Part shown: positions 39,933 through 50,260 of the stretch, piece by piece
How the letters are laid out: every line of letters begins with the position of its first letter
How positions within the stretch are numbered: the first letter of the stretch is position 1
Source: Spiroplasma cantharicola
GTDB taxonomy: Bacteria > Bacillota_I > Bacilli_A > Mycoplasmatales > Mycoplasmataceae
Assembly: GCF_001281045.1 (NCBI RefSeq)
Contig: NZ_CP012622.1
Coordinates: 62,001 to 126,000 of the forward strand
Reading direction: 5' to 3'
Length of the DNA: 64,000 nt
Program-made: the position numbers and the translations under genes
The notes under the pieces: model-generated
What the model was told of the DNA's origin: nothing
The model's input: the letters and a program-made list of their open reading frames with translations, nothing else
Databases searched by the model: none

Positions 39933-42101
39933 ATGATAAAAGAACTATTAAAAGAATTAAATGATGAGCAACTAGATTCAGTAATCACTACAGATGTTCC
40001 TGTAAGAATAATTGCAGGAGCAGGTAGTGGAAAAACAAGAGTTATAACAACTAAAATAGCGTATTTAATAGAAAAAGAAGGAATTTATCCACCAAAAATA
40101 TTAGCAGTTACTTTTACAAATAAAGCAGCTCAGGAAATGAAAGATCGAGTTAATAAAATAATTCCAAATTTGGATAGAAATCCGTTAATTACAACTTTTC
40201 ACTCTTTTTGTGTCAGAGTACTTAGAGAAGATTGCGAAGATATAGGAATATCAAAGGATTTTACTATTATTGATGCATCAGATCAGGCGAAGATAATTAG
40301 AGATATAATTAAAAAACTTGATATTAGCACTGATAAAAATAGACCAGAAAGAAAAATTTTATCAAAAATAAGTAATTGAAAAGCAAAACAAATTGATTGA
40401 AATGAAGCTTATGAAGAAACTTTCAATTTTGAAGAAAAAAAATGAGCAAAAGCATATAGAGATTATCAACAATATTTATATGATAAAAATTATTTAGATT
40501 TTGACGATTTAATTTTAAAGGTTCATAAACTTTTTAATGAAAATATACAAATAAGAGAAAAATGAAGAAATAGATTTGATTATATAATGGTTGATGAATT
40601 TCAAGATACAAATTACACTCAATTTGATTTGGTTAAATGATTAACAGGTTCAAAAAATAATTTAACAGTTGTTGGAGACCCAGATCAAACTATTTACTCA
40701 TGAAGAGGGGCAAAAGTTAATATTATTCTTAATTTTAAAAATGAATTTGCAAATTCACGTACAATAATGTTAACTGAAAATTATAGATCAACAAAACCAA
40801 TTTTGGATATAGCAAATAATTTTATTGATAATAATAAAAATAGAGAAAAAAAAGATATTTTTACTCAAAAAAAAGCGGGAGAAATTGTTCAAGTAAAAGA
40901 AGTGGCTTCAAGAAATTTTGAAGCAAAATTTGTAACTAAAAAAATTAAGGAATTAGTTGAAGAAAATAATTATAAATACTCAGATATTTTTGTACTTTAT
41001 AGAACAAATGCTTGATCTCAAGAATTTGAAAAGGAGTTTCAAAATCAGAAAGTTCCATTTCAACTTATTGGTGGATTTAAGTTTAGAGATAGAAAAGTAA
41101 TTAAAGATGTAACTGCACTTTTGCGTTCAGTTGTTTTTAAAGATGACTTAGCTATGGAAAGAGTTTTTACATTTACTCCTAAAGTAGGAGCTGTAACAGC
41201 TTCAAAATTAAAAATTGCTTCAGAGCAATTGAACTTAAACTTATTTGATTTTTTGACATCTCAAAATCAAGAAGTCAATCAAATATCAAAAAATTTAAAT
41301 GAACTGGTTGCTTGTTTAATAAAAGCAAGAGAGATTTTTGAAGAAAATAAGAGTATATTAAAGTTAACAGAAACTTTAATTAAAGAATCTGGTTATAGAG
41401 ACCGATTAGATTTAAAAGATAAAGAAGATATTGAAGCACTACAAAATTTAGAAGCTTATTATGACCAAATGGAAAAATATGATAATTATTATAATGAATC
41501 TGAAAATGAATTAAATAGAGCAGTCATGTTTCTACAAGAAGAAGCTTTATCAAGCGATGAAGATAATCAAAGCGAGATAAATAAGGTTACTTTATTAACA
41601 ATTCATTCCGCAAAGGGATTAGAAAACAAAGTAGTATTTATTGTAGGTTTAAATAAAGATGTATTTCCTTCAAAAATGAGTTTTTTATCAATTGAAAATC
41701 TTGAAGAGGAAAGAAGAGCCTTTTATGTTGCTATTACAAGAGCACAGGAAAGAGTATTTATATCGTATGTATCTGGAGAATATTCTTATATTTCTAATGG
41801 AGAATTAGGACCTTCAAGATTTATTCAAGAACTTAATCCTGAATTATATGAAATTGAAAAAAGTATTTATTTTCACTCAAATACTGATGTTTCAAGTACT
41901 TATAAGGGAAAAGCAAATTTAGAGTTTAGACCTGATAAATTAGAAGCTGGAGTTATTAAGGGAGATAAAATAAAGCATATGATATTTGGAGATGGACTAG
42001 TTGTTAAAGTTATTGATAGGTATATCTCAGTGGCATTTTCAGACCCCAAACAAGGGGTTAAAATGATACCAATTAGCTCTAGTGCATGAGAAAAAATATA
42101 A
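39933..42101 (+). CDS. pcrA: ATP-dependent DNA helicase PcrA/UvrD
   Basis: A superfamily 1A 3'-5' helicase used in repair and in removing RNA polymerase and RecA from DNA. The 722-residue product has Walker A AGAGSGKTR, motif Ia TFTNKAAQEMK, motif II VDEFQDTNYTQF, motif III VVGDPDQTIYSWRGA, motif IV NYRSTKPIL, motif V TIHSAKGLE and motif VI RRAFYVAITRA, in order. The Trp in SWRGA is TGA. The C-terminal end is short but contains a basic KGKANLEF and a compact Tudor-like module (GDKIKHMIFGDGLVVKV). GGAG precedes the start. It is the third repair helicase gene in the window after uvrB and uvrA. Confidence 0.95.
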
Positions 42102-42481: not shown

Positions 42482-42955
42482 ATTATTAACATTTTTTAGA
42501 AAAAAAATCTTATTTAGTTAAATTAAATGAATTATTTTCTTAAACTTTTTTGAAAAAACTATACCTTTTTTTTCCTTTTTTGGTTATAACATTATAGAAA
42601 TAAAAAAACATTTCACATAAAAATATCTTCAAATTTAACAAAAGATTTAAATTTATAAATTAACTGAAAAAGTATAAATCAGGAGGTTTATAATAATTAA
42701 AGTTAAAAGGATATTTATATTAGTCTTTTCATTGGCTATAAAAAAAGACTAAAATAGCATTACATTAGCCATAATATAAATATTGTATTTTTTGTTTCAC
42801 TTAATATTTATTTACTAAAAAGTTTTAAGTGAAATCACTTACTTTTCTAGGTAAAATTTTTAACAACAAAACTAGGCACAGTTTCATAATTATAGGCGCT
42901 TGTTATAGCGCATTATTCTATAAAAAATAGAATTAAACGAAAGGCGATATATAAA
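42482..42955 (+). promoter_or_regulatory. 474-base non-coding region: probable structured leader of nrdFIE
   Basis: No gene of useful length is seen. The stretch holds an isolated AGGAGG at 42681 followed by a 20-codon AT-rich frame without a standard start. A stem at 42721-42729 / 42743-42751 (TAGTCTTTT) has a loop TGGCTA that can pair with TAGCCA at 42766-42771, a possible pseudoknot. A 10-bp hairpin TTTCACTTAA (42795-42804) / TTAAGTGAAA (42825-42834) follows, then small hairpins at 42896-42911 (GCGCT / AGCGC) and 42915-42933 (ATTCTA / TAGAAT). It ends at the AAAGGCGA RBS of nrdF. Several promoter-like AT blocks exist but none is clear. Confidence 0.5.
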
Positions 42956-43978
42956 ATGGCAAAGAAAAAAAACCAATATTACTATGATTCACTTTCTCCG
43001 ATTGAATTTGCTTTAAATAAGTTTAAAGGAAGAATGAGATCAGTGAATTGAAATGTAATGAATGACGATAAAGATTTAGAGGTTTGAAATAGAGCTACAC
43101 AAAATTTTTGATTACCTGAAAAAGTACCAGTTTCAAATGACTTAGTTTCTTGAAAAACACTAACTCCTGAATGACAAGAATTAGTAACAAGAACTTTTAC
43201 TGGACTTACTTTATTAGATACTATTCAAGCAACTGTTGGAGATGTTGCTCAAGTTCAAAATTCATTAACAGATCATGAGCAAGTTATTTATACTAATTTT
43301 GCATTTATGGTAGCTGTTCATGCAAGATCTTATGGAACAATTTTTTCTACATTATGTTCAAGTGACCAAATAGAAGAAGCACATGAATGAGTAATTAATT
43401 GTGATAGTTTGCAAGAAAGAGCTAAAGCATTAATACCATATTACACAGGAAATGATCCATTAAAATCAAAAGTTGCAGCAGCACTTATGCCAGGGTTCTT
43501 ACTTTATGGAGGATTTTACTTACCGTTTTATTTATCAGCAAGAGGTAAATTACCAAATACATCAGATATTATAAGATTAATTTTAAGAGATAAAGTTATT
43601 CATAATTATTACAGTGGATATAAATATCAAAGAAAAGTTGAAAAATTATCTCCTGAAAAACAAGCAGAGATGAAAAAATTTGTATTTGACTTATTATATG
43701 AATTAATAGATTTAGAAAATAAATTTTTATATGAATTATATGACGGGTTTGGTATTGCAGAAGATGCAGTCAGATTTAGTTTATACAATGCAGGAAAATT
43801 TTTACAAAACTTAGGATATGAATCTCCATTTACAGAAGAAGAAACTAGAATCGAACCAGAAATATTTACACAATTATCAGCAAGAGCTGATGAAAATCAT
43901 GACTTTTTCTCAGGGAATGGGTCATCATATGTTATGGGTGTAACTGAAGAAACATCTGATGAGGATTGAGAATTTTAA
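42956..43978 (+). CDS. nrdF: Ribonucleotide reductase small subunit NrdF, VPK (class Ie) type
   Basis: NrdF generates the radical used by NrdE. The 340-residue protein aligns with class Ib R2 but three carboxylate metal ligands are replaced. FMVAVHARSY has Val119 where Glu is expected (His122 and Tyr126 kept), MPGFLLYGGF has Pro179 for Glu, and LRDKVIHNYY has Lys213 for Glu (His216 kept). Asp88 remains. The Val-Pro-Lys set is the signature of the class Ie R2 described from Mesoplasma florum, in which Tyr126 is converted to a stable DOPA radical without bound metal, with NrdI's help. GAAAGGCGA precedes the start. TGA-Trp codons interrupt the N-terminal third and the C-terminal end. Confidence 0.95.
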
Positions 43979-43981
43979 TTA

Positions 43982-44437
43982 ATGCATGATGATGTTATTA
44001 GAATATCAAATAAAGATATTAAAAAACCAAAGGGAAAAGTATTTGTTGTATACTTTTCTTCAGTCTCTAATAATACCCATAGATTTATGGAAAAACTAGA
44101 TGTAAATGATGCAAGAATTCCCTATGAATTAGATGATCAATTAATTGTTCAAAAGGAATATGTTTTAATAACTCCAACTTATGCTGGAGGCGGCGGAGAC
44201 ACAAAGGGTGCTGTACCAGTTCAAGTAATTAGATTTCTAAATAATGAAAATAACAGAAATTTATGTAGAGGAGTAATAGCTTCTGGAAACACTAATTTTG
44301 GTGATACGTTTGCAATTGCAGGACCAATAATTTCTAAAAAATTAAAAGTTCCTTTACTATATCAATTTGAGCTTTTAGGAACAGTAAATGATGTTGAAAC
44401 AATAAGAAAAATCTTGGAAGATTTTTGAGAGGAATAA
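43982..44437 (+). CDS. nrdI: Flavodoxin-like ribonucleotide reductase activator NrdI
   Basis: A 151-residue FMN protein. VYFSSVSNNTHRF is the phosphate-binding loop, and YAGGGGDTKGAVPVQVIRFL with the later GNTNFGDTFAIAGPII complete the NrdI pattern. NrdI supplies superoxide to NrdF in class Ib and is needed for radical formation in class Ie. It lies between nrdF and nrdE with gaps of three and four bases, so the three are one operon. The last three codons follow a TGA-Trp. Confidence 0.95.
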
Positions 44438-44441
44438 AATA

Positions 44442-46607
44442 ATGAAAAAAGATAATATAAAAAATCTTTCTGGTACAAATGAATCAGATGAATATATAAA
44501 ATTGAATGCCAGAGCTAAATTGTTTGTGCCTGGTCAAGATAACTTTAAATTAGATATTCAAGCTGCAGAATTATATATGAAAGAGCATATTGAACCAAAT
44601 ATGATGAAGTTCTCAACTACTAAAGAAAGAATAGATTATTTAGTAAAAAATCAATATTATGATGATGAAGTTATTAAAAAATATACAATAAAGCAAATTG
44701 ATGAATTAAGTAAATATGCATATTCATTTGACTTTAAGTTTCCTAGTTTTATGGGAGCTTTAAAATTCTTTAACGCTTATGGTTTAAAAAGTTTTGATGG
44801 AAAACAATATTTGGAAAGTTATGAAGATAGAGTAGTTTTAAATGCGTTATTTTTAGGGGGTGGGAACTTCGAAAAAGCTAAAAATATTTTAAAGCAAATT
44901 ATTTTAGGAAGATTCCAACCAGCAACTCCAACATTTTTAAATGCAGGTAAAAAACAAAGAGGAGAATATGTTTCTTGTTATTTACTTAGAGTTGAAGATA
45001 ACATGGAATCAATTGCAAGAGCAGTAACAACATCTTTACAATTATCAAAACGTGGAGGGGGAGTTGCAATTTGTTTAACTAACCTAAGAGAATTTGGAGC
45101 TCCTATTAAAAATATTGAAAATCAAGCAACAGGTGTAATTCCTGTAATGAAAATTTTAGAAGATTCATTTTCTTATGCAAACCAATTGGGGCAAAGACAA
45201 GGAGCTGGAGCTGTATACTTAAATGTTCACCATCCAGATATAATGTCATTCCTTGATACAAAACGTGAAAATGCTGATGAAAAAATAAGAATTAAATCTT
45301 TATCATTAGGAGTTGTTGTTCCTAACATTACTTTTGATTTAGCAAAAGAAAATAAAGATATGGCACTTTTCAGTCCATATGATGTTGAGAAAGTTTATAA
45401 AAAACCATTTTCAGATATTTCTGTAACTGATGAGTATGAAAATATGTTAAAAAATAAAGATATTAAAAAAACATATATTAATGCTAGAAAGTTATTTCAA
45501 GCAATAGCAGAATTACATTTTGAAAGTGGTTATCCATATTTATTATTTGATGATACTGTAAATAACAATAATGCTCATCCAGTAGCTGGAAGAATTGTTA
45601 TGAGTAACTTGTGTAGTGAAATTGTTCAAGTTTCAACTCCAAGTGAATATAATTCAGATTTATCTTTCAAAAAAACAGGAGAAGATATTTGTTGTAATCT
45701 TGGAAGTATGAATATTGCAAAAACAATGGAAAGTGGAGAAGAGTTTTCAGAAGTTATTTATAATTCGATCCTTGCTTTAGATCATGTTTCAAGAAATAGT
45801 GATTTATCAAGTGCACCATCAATTGAAAATGGAAATAAAAATAATCATGCTGTAGGTTTAGGTGCTATGAATTTACATGGATTCTTATCAGTAAATCATA
45901 TTTATTATAATTCACCCGAAGCAATTGACTTTACTAATATGTTTTTCTATACAATGGCTTTCCATGCTTTTAAAGCTTCGAATAGATTAGCAAAAGAATA
46001 TGGTTCTTTTGCAGGATTTAAAATTTCAAAATTTGCAGATGGTTCATATTTTGATAAATATACTAAATGTGAAAATAACAAATTTATTCCTCAATCAGAA
46101 AAAATTAAAAATTTATTTGAAAAATACAAAGTTTCAATACCAACTCAAAAAGAATGAATAGAGCTATCAAATGAAATTAAAAAAACAGGATTAGCTAATT
46201 CACATTTAATGGCAGTTGCTCCAACAGGTTCAATAAGTTACTTATCATCTTGTACACCAAGTTTACAACCAGTAGTTGCACCAGTTGAAGTTAGAAAAGA
46301 AGGAAAACTTGGAAGAGTTTATGTTCCTGCTTATAAAATTGATTTTGATAATATGGGTTATTATTCATTAGGAGCATATGAAGTTGGTCCAGATCCTATT
46401 ATTGATATCGCAGCAGCAGCACAACAACACGTTGATCAAGCAATATCATTAACATTATTTATGACTGACCAAGTAACTACAAGAGATTTAAATAAAGCTT
46501 ATGTAAGAGCCTTTAAAAAAGGATGTGCTTCAATTTACTATGTAAGAGTACGTCAAGAAGTTCTTGAAGATAGTGAAAATTATGAATGTGATGCTTGTGT
46601 TATTTAA
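44442..46607 (+). CDS. nrdE: Ribonucleotide reductase large subunit NrdE
   Basis: NrdE reduces ribonucleoside diphosphates. The 721-residue protein has the N-terminal ATP-cone-free region, the core with QPATPTFLNAGK and VSCYLLRVEDNME, and LSKRGGGVAI. LCSEI holds the first active-site Cys partner, NLGSMNIAK contains the thiyl-radical Cys region (DICCNLGSMN), and PTGSISYLSSCTPS follows. It ends ECDACVI with the C-terminal redox pair CDAC. AGAGGAATAAA precedes the start. The operon ends at a terminator directly after its stop. Confidence 0.97.
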
Positions 46608-46690: not shown

Positions 46691-47440
46691 ATGATAGAGA
46701 TAAAAAACATAACCAGAAAATTAGGGAATTTTGGTTTAAAGGATGTAAGTTTTACAATAAAGAAAGGTTCGGTTGTTGCCTTTGTTGGTGATAATGGTGC
46801 AGGAAAAACTACAACAATTAAAGCTCTTTTTGGTGAACTTAAATTAGATAGTGGAGAAGTTTTAATAGATGGTGAGAATTTATTTAAAAATAATAATTTA
46901 TCAAAAGTAGCATTTTTTCCAGATTCAAATAATGTACCTTTAGATATAAAAGTACATGAGTATCTGCACTATATATGTGCTGCAAATAATATGAATAAGG
47001 AAAGAACTGAATTGAGTATTGATAATGTTTATAGATTATTAGAACTTAGACCATATAAGGATAAAAAAATAAAGCAACTTTCTTCTGGGTGAAAAAAGAA
47101 AGCAATTATGGCAAGTGTTTTAGTTCGTTCACCAGAATATATTATTTTTGATGAGCCAACAGCCAATGTTGATGTTGAATCAAAATTATATTTTATGAAT
47201 ATTTTTAAACTTTTATCAAAAGTAGGGATAACAATTTTAATTACAAGTCATATAATTGAAGAACTACAAGAGTTAGCTAATTATTTAGTTTTAATTAAAA
47301 AAGGTCAAATAGTTTATGCAAATGATTTTGATAGAAAAAAAGAGCACATAATGGATGTTTATAAAAGACATATGAATGAGCCAATTAAGGACTTACATAT
47401 TCTAAGAGACTTGTATAAAAATAAAAAGGAAAGAGAGTAA
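46691..47440 (+). CDS. ABC transporter ATP-binding protein, copy A
   Basis: A 249-residue single-module ATPase with Walker A GDNGAGKTT, signature LSSGWKKK and Walker B YIIFDEPTANVD, then the switch His in TSHI. The signature lacks the usual Gly-Gln (LSGGQ) and its Trp is coded by TGA. It is a close paralogue of the gene at 49511; long stretches such as KKGSVVAFVGDNGAGKTT are identical. It probably drives the permease encoded next. AAAGGAG precedes the start. Confidence 0.93.
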
Positions 47441-47441
47441 T

Positions 47442-49496
47442 ATGGAAAATTTAGTAGTAAATAGGAATAAGAAGAATTTTAGAAATTTTACTTTGCTTTA
47501 TTCAATTAATTTAAAACTAAGTTTAAAAAACATTGGTTCTATTATTAGTGGATTAGTTTTTTCATTAGTAACTATAATATTCTTTATAACTGAATATTCA
47601 AACATTATTGATAAATCAAATATTTCAAGTTATACTTCATTAAAATATTTAACTTTCTTATTTGGGGGAGCAACATTAATTTTTCATATAGTATTAAATT
47701 CATTATATTTATTCAAAAGACAAGTAAAAGATGGTATATCTTCAATTGAATTAAGAGCAGGGTATAAAACTTGAAAATCTTATTTAATTAGAGTTCTTAT
47801 TACTTTTACTGTGGCTTGTATTTATATAACAATACCCTTACTATTTGCAATTATTTTAAATTTAGCTAATTTAAGTGATAGTACATTTTTCTTCAATTTA
47901 CATTATTCACAAATATTTTTCTTTTACTTTTTAGCTTTTTTTTCAACAATTGTTTTATCTTTAATGATGGTTGTTTTTAAAACTTCATTAGCAACTCTAT
48001 TTTCAATGATATTTATGTTCACTGTAGTTTTAGCACCAATGTTTGCATCATTTAAATTTATTATGAGTAGCTCAGATTTTTCTAACTGAAAAACAAATAT
48101 TAAAATGTTAGGGGCCCAAGATTTCTATAATACTTTTAAAAGTGATAATGAACTATTTGATGATGATGAAAATGAAGGACAGTCTAAGTCTTTAAATGGA
48201 ATACATAAATATTTAAATCAGAGTTTACAACCATTAAATAAATATGAAAATATTGAAGAAAATAGTGAAAGTAAATTTAATTATAAAATAATTCCTGATC
48301 AAAAATTTTTCCCTGCTTGAAATTCAAAAAAATATTTAAACCAAAATGAATTTACTTCACAAGAAAATTTTAATTATGAAAAAGCAACTCATATTCTTCT
48401 TAAGAATATTGGTTTTGGACAAGTATATTATAATTTTAATGTTTTTGATGATAATACACATGAACAGAAATATTTATTAGAAAAGACTCCCATTTGAAAG
48501 ATAATTGAAAAAATAAATAGAACAGCATTAGAAAATAGTGAAAAGCTTATTGCTCAAAATGAAAATGAAATACCATCAATATTTGTTAAGAAAACTTATT
48601 CTTATGTAAATAATGAAGTTAATTCAAAAGATATTAATATAGAAAATTTCTCAACTCAAATGTCAAATATTTTACCAGAGTATTCAAGTATGTTTTCATT
48701 TATTCAAACTTTTTATAATAAAAATAAGACTGCAATTTTAGCTGATAATAAGAATCCATATTCATCAAGTAATTCTTTTTACAATGATATTTTTGACTTT
48801 GCTCTTGTAAATACTAGAAATAAAGATTATAGAAAAACTTTAAATTTCTTTTCTTGAAAAAAAGTCTTTGAATCAAACAATAAAAAGTCTTATCAAAATG
48901 TTACAGATGACTTTTGTAAATTAACTGTATCAAATAATAGTGACGGAGAACCTTTAAAATTATGTATTAATCAAGAAGTACAAAAACAAAATGATGAAAT
49001 GGCAAAAGTATATAAAAAATTTCCTGAGTTAACAATTATTAATGCATTAATAATTAACTTATGAAAAGAAGCAATGGAATTTGATGTTGTAAGACCTTCA
49101 GGTTGATATTCTTCAAATTCAAGTATTGATGATGGACTTTATTTATATTTTAATGTAGCTAAAAAATCTAATACATTGACTACAGATATATCTAGACATT
49201 TTGCAGCTATGTCAACAGGATTATTCTCTTCAAGATTATTAAATGATTCATATAATTCTTCAGGAACTATTTTTTATCAAGGACAATTTTTAAATATAAA
49301 AAACATTTTTGATTTTGAAAACTTTAGTTCTGAAAATAAAGAACAAGGTAAAGCAATGAAGCCAATTTATGAAAAACTTAAAATAAAAACCTCGACATCA
49401 TTTATTATACCTCTTGCGTATTTTATATATATATTAATAATTACACCACTTGGTTATGTTGGTTATTTAGCTTTTAATAAAAAAGCTAAATTATAG
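47442..49496 (+). CDS. ABC transporter permease with large extracytoplasmic domain, copy A
   Basis: A 684-residue protein. Residues 1-210 hold about five or six membrane helices (for example GSIISGLVFSLVTIIFFI, YLTFLFGGATLIFHIVL), followed by a hydrophilic 430-residue domain rich in Asn, Asp and Lys and with YSSNSSIDDG-type stretches, and one last helix (IPLAYFIYILIITPLG) near the C-terminus. The extracellular domain therefore lies between the helices. It is open only with TGA as Trp (at least ten sites). The plan resembles ABC-2 permeases; the copy at 50262 has the same plan. Substrate unknown; export of peptide or lipid is a guess. Confidence 0.75.
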
Positions 49497-49510
49497 AAAG
49501 GAGCTTTAAT

Positions 49511-50260
49511 ATGATAGAGATAAAAAATATTACTAGAGACTTGGGTGGGTTTGTTATTAACCAAGTTAGTTTTACAATAAAGAAGGGTTCAGTTGTTGCT
49601 TTTGTTGGTGATAATGGTGCAGGAAAAACTACAACAATTAAAGCTCTTTTTGGAGAGTTAAAATTAGAGCAAGGGGAAATACTAATGGATGGTAAAAGTA
49701 TTTTTGATGAGCAAAATCTTCAACGAATTGCTTTTTTTCCAGATTCAAATAGTGTTCCATTAAATATGAAATTAAAAGATTATGTTGCATATATTTGTGC
49801 AGTTAATAATATTTCAAAAAAGGAAGCAAAAGAAACTGCTGATAAAATATTTAAAATGCTTTCATTAGAACCTTATATAAACAAAAAAATTAAAAGTTTA
49901 AGCGCGGGTTGAAAAAAAAGAGCAATTATGGCAAGCGTTCTAGTGAGAACACCTGAATATATTGTTTTCGATGAACCAACAGCCAATGTCGATGTTGAAG
50001 CCAAATTATCTTTTATGAACATTCTTCATGAACTTTCAACAATAGGAGTAACAATTTTAATTACTAGTCATATTCTAGAAGAATTACAAGAGGTTGCAAA
50101 TTATGTTGTTTTTATCAGAGATGGAGAAGTTGTTTTAGAAAAAGATTTTGATAATAAAAAAGAATCAATTTCACAATTATATAAAGAAGTTATGGCTGAA
50201 AAAAATAATGGTGAAAAATTATTAAAAGAAATTTATAAGAGTAAGGAAATGGTGGATTAG
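49511..50260 (+). CDS. ABC transporter ATP-binding protein, copy B
   Basis: A 249-residue paralogue of the 46691 ATPase with the same layout: Walker A GDNGAGKTT, signature LSAGWKKR, Walker B YIVFDEPTANVD and TSHI. The first 70 codons are nearly base-for-base conserved with copy A, showing recent duplication or conversion, while the central part has diverged. The Trp in the signature is again TGA. GGAGC precedes the start. It starts 14 bases after permease A. Confidence 0.93.

Follow-up and report, generated by a model that had tools for sequence, protein, structure and literature searches.

The nrdF gene in the window (the whole stretch of 64,000 nucleotides that was analysed) raises the question of whether its product is an ordinary dimetal class Ib R2 subunit or a metal-free one, and whether the organism has any other ribonucleotide reductase at its disposal. 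We consider it very probable (about 94%) that the nrdFIE genes form a complete class Ie (VPK) ribonucleotide reductase which is the only reductase of the organism, and for which the mechanism of Mesoplasma florum R2e is to be expected. Class Ie VPK reductases are an already known, recently described kind of enzyme, of which the window offers a further example. The features of the operon are the following:

42956..43978, + strand: nrdF, class Ie (VPK) R2 subunit, 340 aa, read with code 4
43310..43312, + strand: codon of Val119 (Glu in class Ib), from the alignments
43331..43333, + strand: codon of Tyr126, the expected DOPA radical site, from the alignment and the published numbering
43490..43492, + strand: codon of Pro179 (Glu in class Ib), from the alignments
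43592..43594, + strand: codon of Lys213 (Glu in class Ib), from the alignments
43982..44437, + strand: nrdI, flavodoxin-like activator, 151 aa (TIGR00333, 1.6e-54; PF07972)
44442..46607, + strand: nrdE, R1 catalytic subunit, 721 aa, with a C-terminal CxxC (CDACVI) (TIGR04170, 1.8e-296)

The 340-aa open reading frame of nrdF is obtained when seven internal TGA codons are decoded as Trp, and its product belongs to the Pfam family Ribonuc_red_sm (1e-79). The ligand positions were compared in an alignment of 124 sequences, made up of the window R2 and 123 R2s from related genomes, database loci and E. coli. At columns 88, 119, 122, 179, 213 and 216 the window protein reads DVHPKH, a set that is shared by all the R2-bearing genomes (40/40) among the 60 genomes of the family examined and by the nearest database relatives, namely Mesoplasma, Spiroplasma, Mycoplasmopsis, Streptococcus ictaluri, Lactobacillus kitasatonis and an Atopobium. 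Seventy aligned sequences, E. coli NrdF among them, read DEHEEH and three read DQHSKH, while Tyr126 and Trp52 are invariant throughout the alignment. Pairwise alignment likewise places a Glu of E. coli NrdF opposite each of V119, P179 and K213. Class Ib enzymes are defined by four carboxylate and two His ligands, and in the window R2 three of the Glu are replaced. An earlier note on this DNA had claimed exactly this replacement, with Asp88, His122, His216 and Tyr126 retained, and had compared it to the VPK set of M. florum R2; its residues and numbering proved right, and the alignment of the ligand columns that it had proposed as a check has no Glu at 119, 179 or 213. That a dimetal class Ib R2 has simply been misread, through misalignment or a sequencing error, was already refuted by the 124-sequence alignment and can be dismissed with near certainty. 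The NCBIfam name "class 1b" and the class Ib ancestry of the fold and of the partner genes (NrdI, NrdE) would speak for such a misreading, but the alignment leaves no ambiguity, and VPK recurs in all 40 R2s of the family, each taken from a separate genome, as well as in M. florum R2e, whose structure is solved. The label "class 1b" given to the window R2 reflects the current annotation model, which applies it to metal-free class Ie enzymes.

The best solved match of the window R2 is M. florum R2e (6GP2, E=1e-206), which aligns over all 340 residues without gaps, so that the published active-site numbering (Asp88, Val119, His122, Tyr126, Lys213, His216 and Trp52; PMC8902622) transfers directly. 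The two proteins share the ligand and radical residues of the VPK type (6GP2/6GP3/8BT3/8BT4) as well as the nrdFIE operon. The QSK-type class Ie R2 of Gardnerella (Bifidobacterium vaginale), which is also metal-free, DOPA-bearing and NrdI-dependent, has Lys213 in common with the window R2 but carries Gln and Ser in place of Val and Pro. E. coli NrdF, a class Ib protein, is about 53% identical, of the same fold family and likewise partnered by NrdI and NrdE; it differs in having the three Glu ligands and the nrdHIEF order, as opposed to VPK and nrdFIE in the window. It is very improbable that the VPK site binds an unusual metal or some other cofactor in vivo in this organism. We found no point in support of such binding, whereas two carboxylates are lost relative to class Ib, one site is filled by Lys, and the homologue with the ungapped alignment is both metal-free and active.

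The sequence anatomy, the gene order and the status as sole reductase come from the window organism's own genome, and the chemistry is taken from homology to M. florum R2e. On that basis reduced NrdI would react with O2 to give an oxidant that is fed into R2. This oxidant would hydroxylate Tyr126 to DOPA, and a metal-free oxidation would then turn the DOPA into a stable radical, which would be passed through Lys213 and Trp52 to the thiyl cysteine of NrdE. The DOPA radical on Tyr126 is thus inferred by homology with the M. florum enzyme, and the window enzyme requires O2 but probably has no need for iron or manganese. Since the M. florum enzyme has been characterised, ribonucleotide reduction independent of iron and manganese is predicted for this organism, which would join those expected to make dNTPs de novo with no need for iron, manganese or cobalt.

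The three genes, all intact and of full length, follow each other in the order nrdF-nrdI-nrdE with spacings of 3 bp (nrdF/nrdI) and 4 bp (nrdI/nrdE), and NrdE and its E. coli counterpart have their cysteines at matching alignment positions. All VPK loci examined have the nrdFIE order, and those class Ib loci for which the retrieved sequence covers the three genes are ordered nrdI-nrdE-nrdF. This order has been reported in virtually all VPK genomes, with VPK genes in 93 Mycoplasmatales species, and was not found in QSK genomes (PMC11846895); the window genome, which may itself be part of that census, therefore fits the published pattern. In the 506-bp gap 5' of nrdF only ORFs of 20-43 aa occur and there is no candidate for nrdH or another small gene, nor has the NrdH family a match in the genome. 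Directly 3' of nrdE (46691-50260) two similar ABC ATPase genes surround a gene for a 684-aa membrane-like protein without Pfam match, forming a duplicated exporter-like cassette.

The genome searched (1.18 Mb in one contig, 99.96% complete) contains one R2 and one R1, the latter being the nrdE of this operon, and neither NrdD nor NrdJ was found in it. Its genetic code, size and relatives indicate that the organism is probably a Spiroplasma. In the sister genomes G041 and G043 an intact nrdD-nrdG pair lies in a sugar-operon region (supported by NCBIfam NrdD and NrdG matches in G041 and by the layout in both), which is syntenic with C1:663816-671605 of the window's genome. There nrdD is reduced to a scar of 33 codons (NrdD residues 559-591, approximately C1:667518-667616) and the adjoining nrdG is frameshifted in several places:

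G000:C1:667059-667616 (L186, outside the window): nrdD scar and frameshifted nrdG, by synteny with nrdDG of G041 and G043

The loss of nrdD is therefore real and fairly recent and, given the intact nrdDG of the sisters, leaves the class Ie enzyme as the only reductase. For the deletion of the anaerobic backup there is direct genomic evidence here. With nrdD gone and nrdG broken by frameshifts, a strict dependence on O2 is expected for the making of dNTPs de novo; as the enzyme needs O2, either O2 or salvage should be required for dNTP supply. The earlier note had stated that nrdI is retained between nrdF and nrdE, and NrdI is indeed recognised there by TIGR00333/PF07972, 3 bp after nrdF; a second nrdF with a full ligand set, which it had named as a refutation, does not exist in this genome. 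Its assignment to class Ie (VPK) thus agrees with the ligand columns, the closest solved structure, the nrdFIE order, the presence of NrdI and the lack of any other class I, II or III reductase. No family match to Nramp or to Fe/Mn superoxide dismutase was obtained in the genome.

A deoxynucleoside kinase homologue (dNK family) is encoded, so salvage could supply some dNTPs. One might go further and suppose that the operon, though intact, is dispensable, dNTPs coming mainly from host deoxynucleosides and the class Ie enzyme being on its way out; the kinase, the decayed regulatory leader described below and the existence of related genomes that lack R1 as well as NrdD would all agree with this. 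We regard it as very unlikely, if less so than the use of an unusual metal, as nrdF, nrdI and nrdE have stayed intact and highly conserved (nrdF about 98% identical to the sister species) while nrdD and nrdG decayed, and no other reductase was found in the genome. Among the relatives, ten genomes gave no R2, R1 or NrdD match (G015, G017, G020, G021, G025 and G026 of genus g8, and G001, G002, G051 and G053) and apparently have no ribonucleotide reductase at all.

The leader upstream of nrdF contains the following elements:

42583..42601, + strand: conserved block TTATAACATTATAGAAAT, putative operon promoter, conserved in nine close relatives
42602..42955, + strand: nrdF leader, within which the cobalamin-class aptamer known from relatives is decayed
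42771..42795, + strand: relic of a terminator hairpin, A-U only, -0.5 kcal/mol as against about -6 in relatives
42795..42835, + strand: hairpin TTTCAC...GTGAAA, present in each of the nine close relatives

A promoter scan yielded more sites in shuffled sequences than in the actual one, so the promoter assignment follows from conservation only. No match to the cobalamin riboswitch (RF00174/RF01689, E up to 10 in the leader) or to the 2'-dG-I riboswitch (RF01510) turned up in the window leader, nor anywhere else in the genome. Other Rfam matches in the leader at E up to 10 were chance-level sRNA and miRNA hits and were rejected, as was a match to n00280 at 41679-41781, which lies inside the upstream helicase gene and below the gathering score. 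The riboswitch control by cobalamin or 2'-dG that relatives show has thus probably been lost from nrdFIE, a conclusion inferred from the leader.

Riboswitches and nrdJ were compared in the 40 genomes with R2e out of the 60 of the family. A 2'-dG-I riboswitch lies shortly before nrdF in 11 genomes (the Mesoplasma-like genus g7 together with G003, G052, G054 and G055), as already known for M. florum (PMC8872408), and sets these Mesoplasma-like relatives apart from the window, whose leader has no recognisable riboswitch; none of the genomes with this element before nrdF has nrdJ. In nine other leaders (L013, L022, L024, L029, L116, L118, L121, L122 and L123) a cobalamin riboswitch above the Rfam cut-off precedes nrdF, and eight of these nine genomes encode an intact B12-dependent NrdJ (called by NCBIfam PRK08115 in the five proteins scanned and from the pattern of PF02867 matches in the rest). 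The cobalamin element is present in 8/10 of the R2e genomes with intact nrdJ versus 1/30 of those without (Fisher p = 5e-6, a value that is too optimistic because the genomes are related). In the ninth genome, G045, nrdJ is broken into fragments: three separate R1-type matches at G045:C2:112029-113724 (in L176), about 6 kb before nrdF, represent the gene, and cobalamin elements persist both before nrdF and after the broken nrdJ. Repression of a class I reductase by B12 has a precedent in the Streptomyces nrdABS operon (PMC4991794), where, as in the relatives of the window, a cobalamin riboswitch precedes the class I genes and a class II NrdJ is co-encoded; in the relatives, however, the switch precedes a metal-free class Ie operon, and in the window it has decayed. 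In the open-licence literature we found no description of a Spiroplasma ribonucleotide reductase or B12 riboswitch, or of the regulation of this operon.

In the tree the window's clade is sister to G045. Whole-genome searches gave weak cobalamin-class matches before nrdF (E 2e-5 to 4e-4) in four genomes (G038, G033, G040 and G039), a weak AdoCbl-II match at the same place in G042 and, in G034, only a partial aptamer core with a chance-level score (leaders L155-L158 and L160, with L159 marginal). All six lack nrdJ, and their still recognisable aptamers may reflect slow decay or a changed ligand. The window's genome (G000) groups with G041 and G043 in a clade (support 0.999) that has lost the aptamer core and in which little is left of the terminator stem (0 to -1.3 kcal/mol, compared with -5.7 to -7.0 in these six relatives). 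The simplest reading is that in the window's lineage nrdJ was lost first, the switch then decayed and nrdD was lost last.

On balance we favour the proposal that the class Ie operon of Spiroplasma-like bacteria is placed under interchangeable metabolite sensors, a cobalamin riboswitch where a class II reductase is present and a 2'-dG riboswitch where it is not, and that loss of nrdJ leads to decay of the cobalamin switch, leaving an unswitched, O2-dependent and metal-free enzyme to provide all new dNTPs. The pattern among the relatives suggests that the availability of B12 decides between the B12-dependent and the metal-free reductase in this group, which is testable in cultivable species. In one further relative, a 2'-dG-I riboswitch match (G059:C1:95227-95291, L179) is located just 5' of nrdJ, the gene of the B12-dependent reductase.
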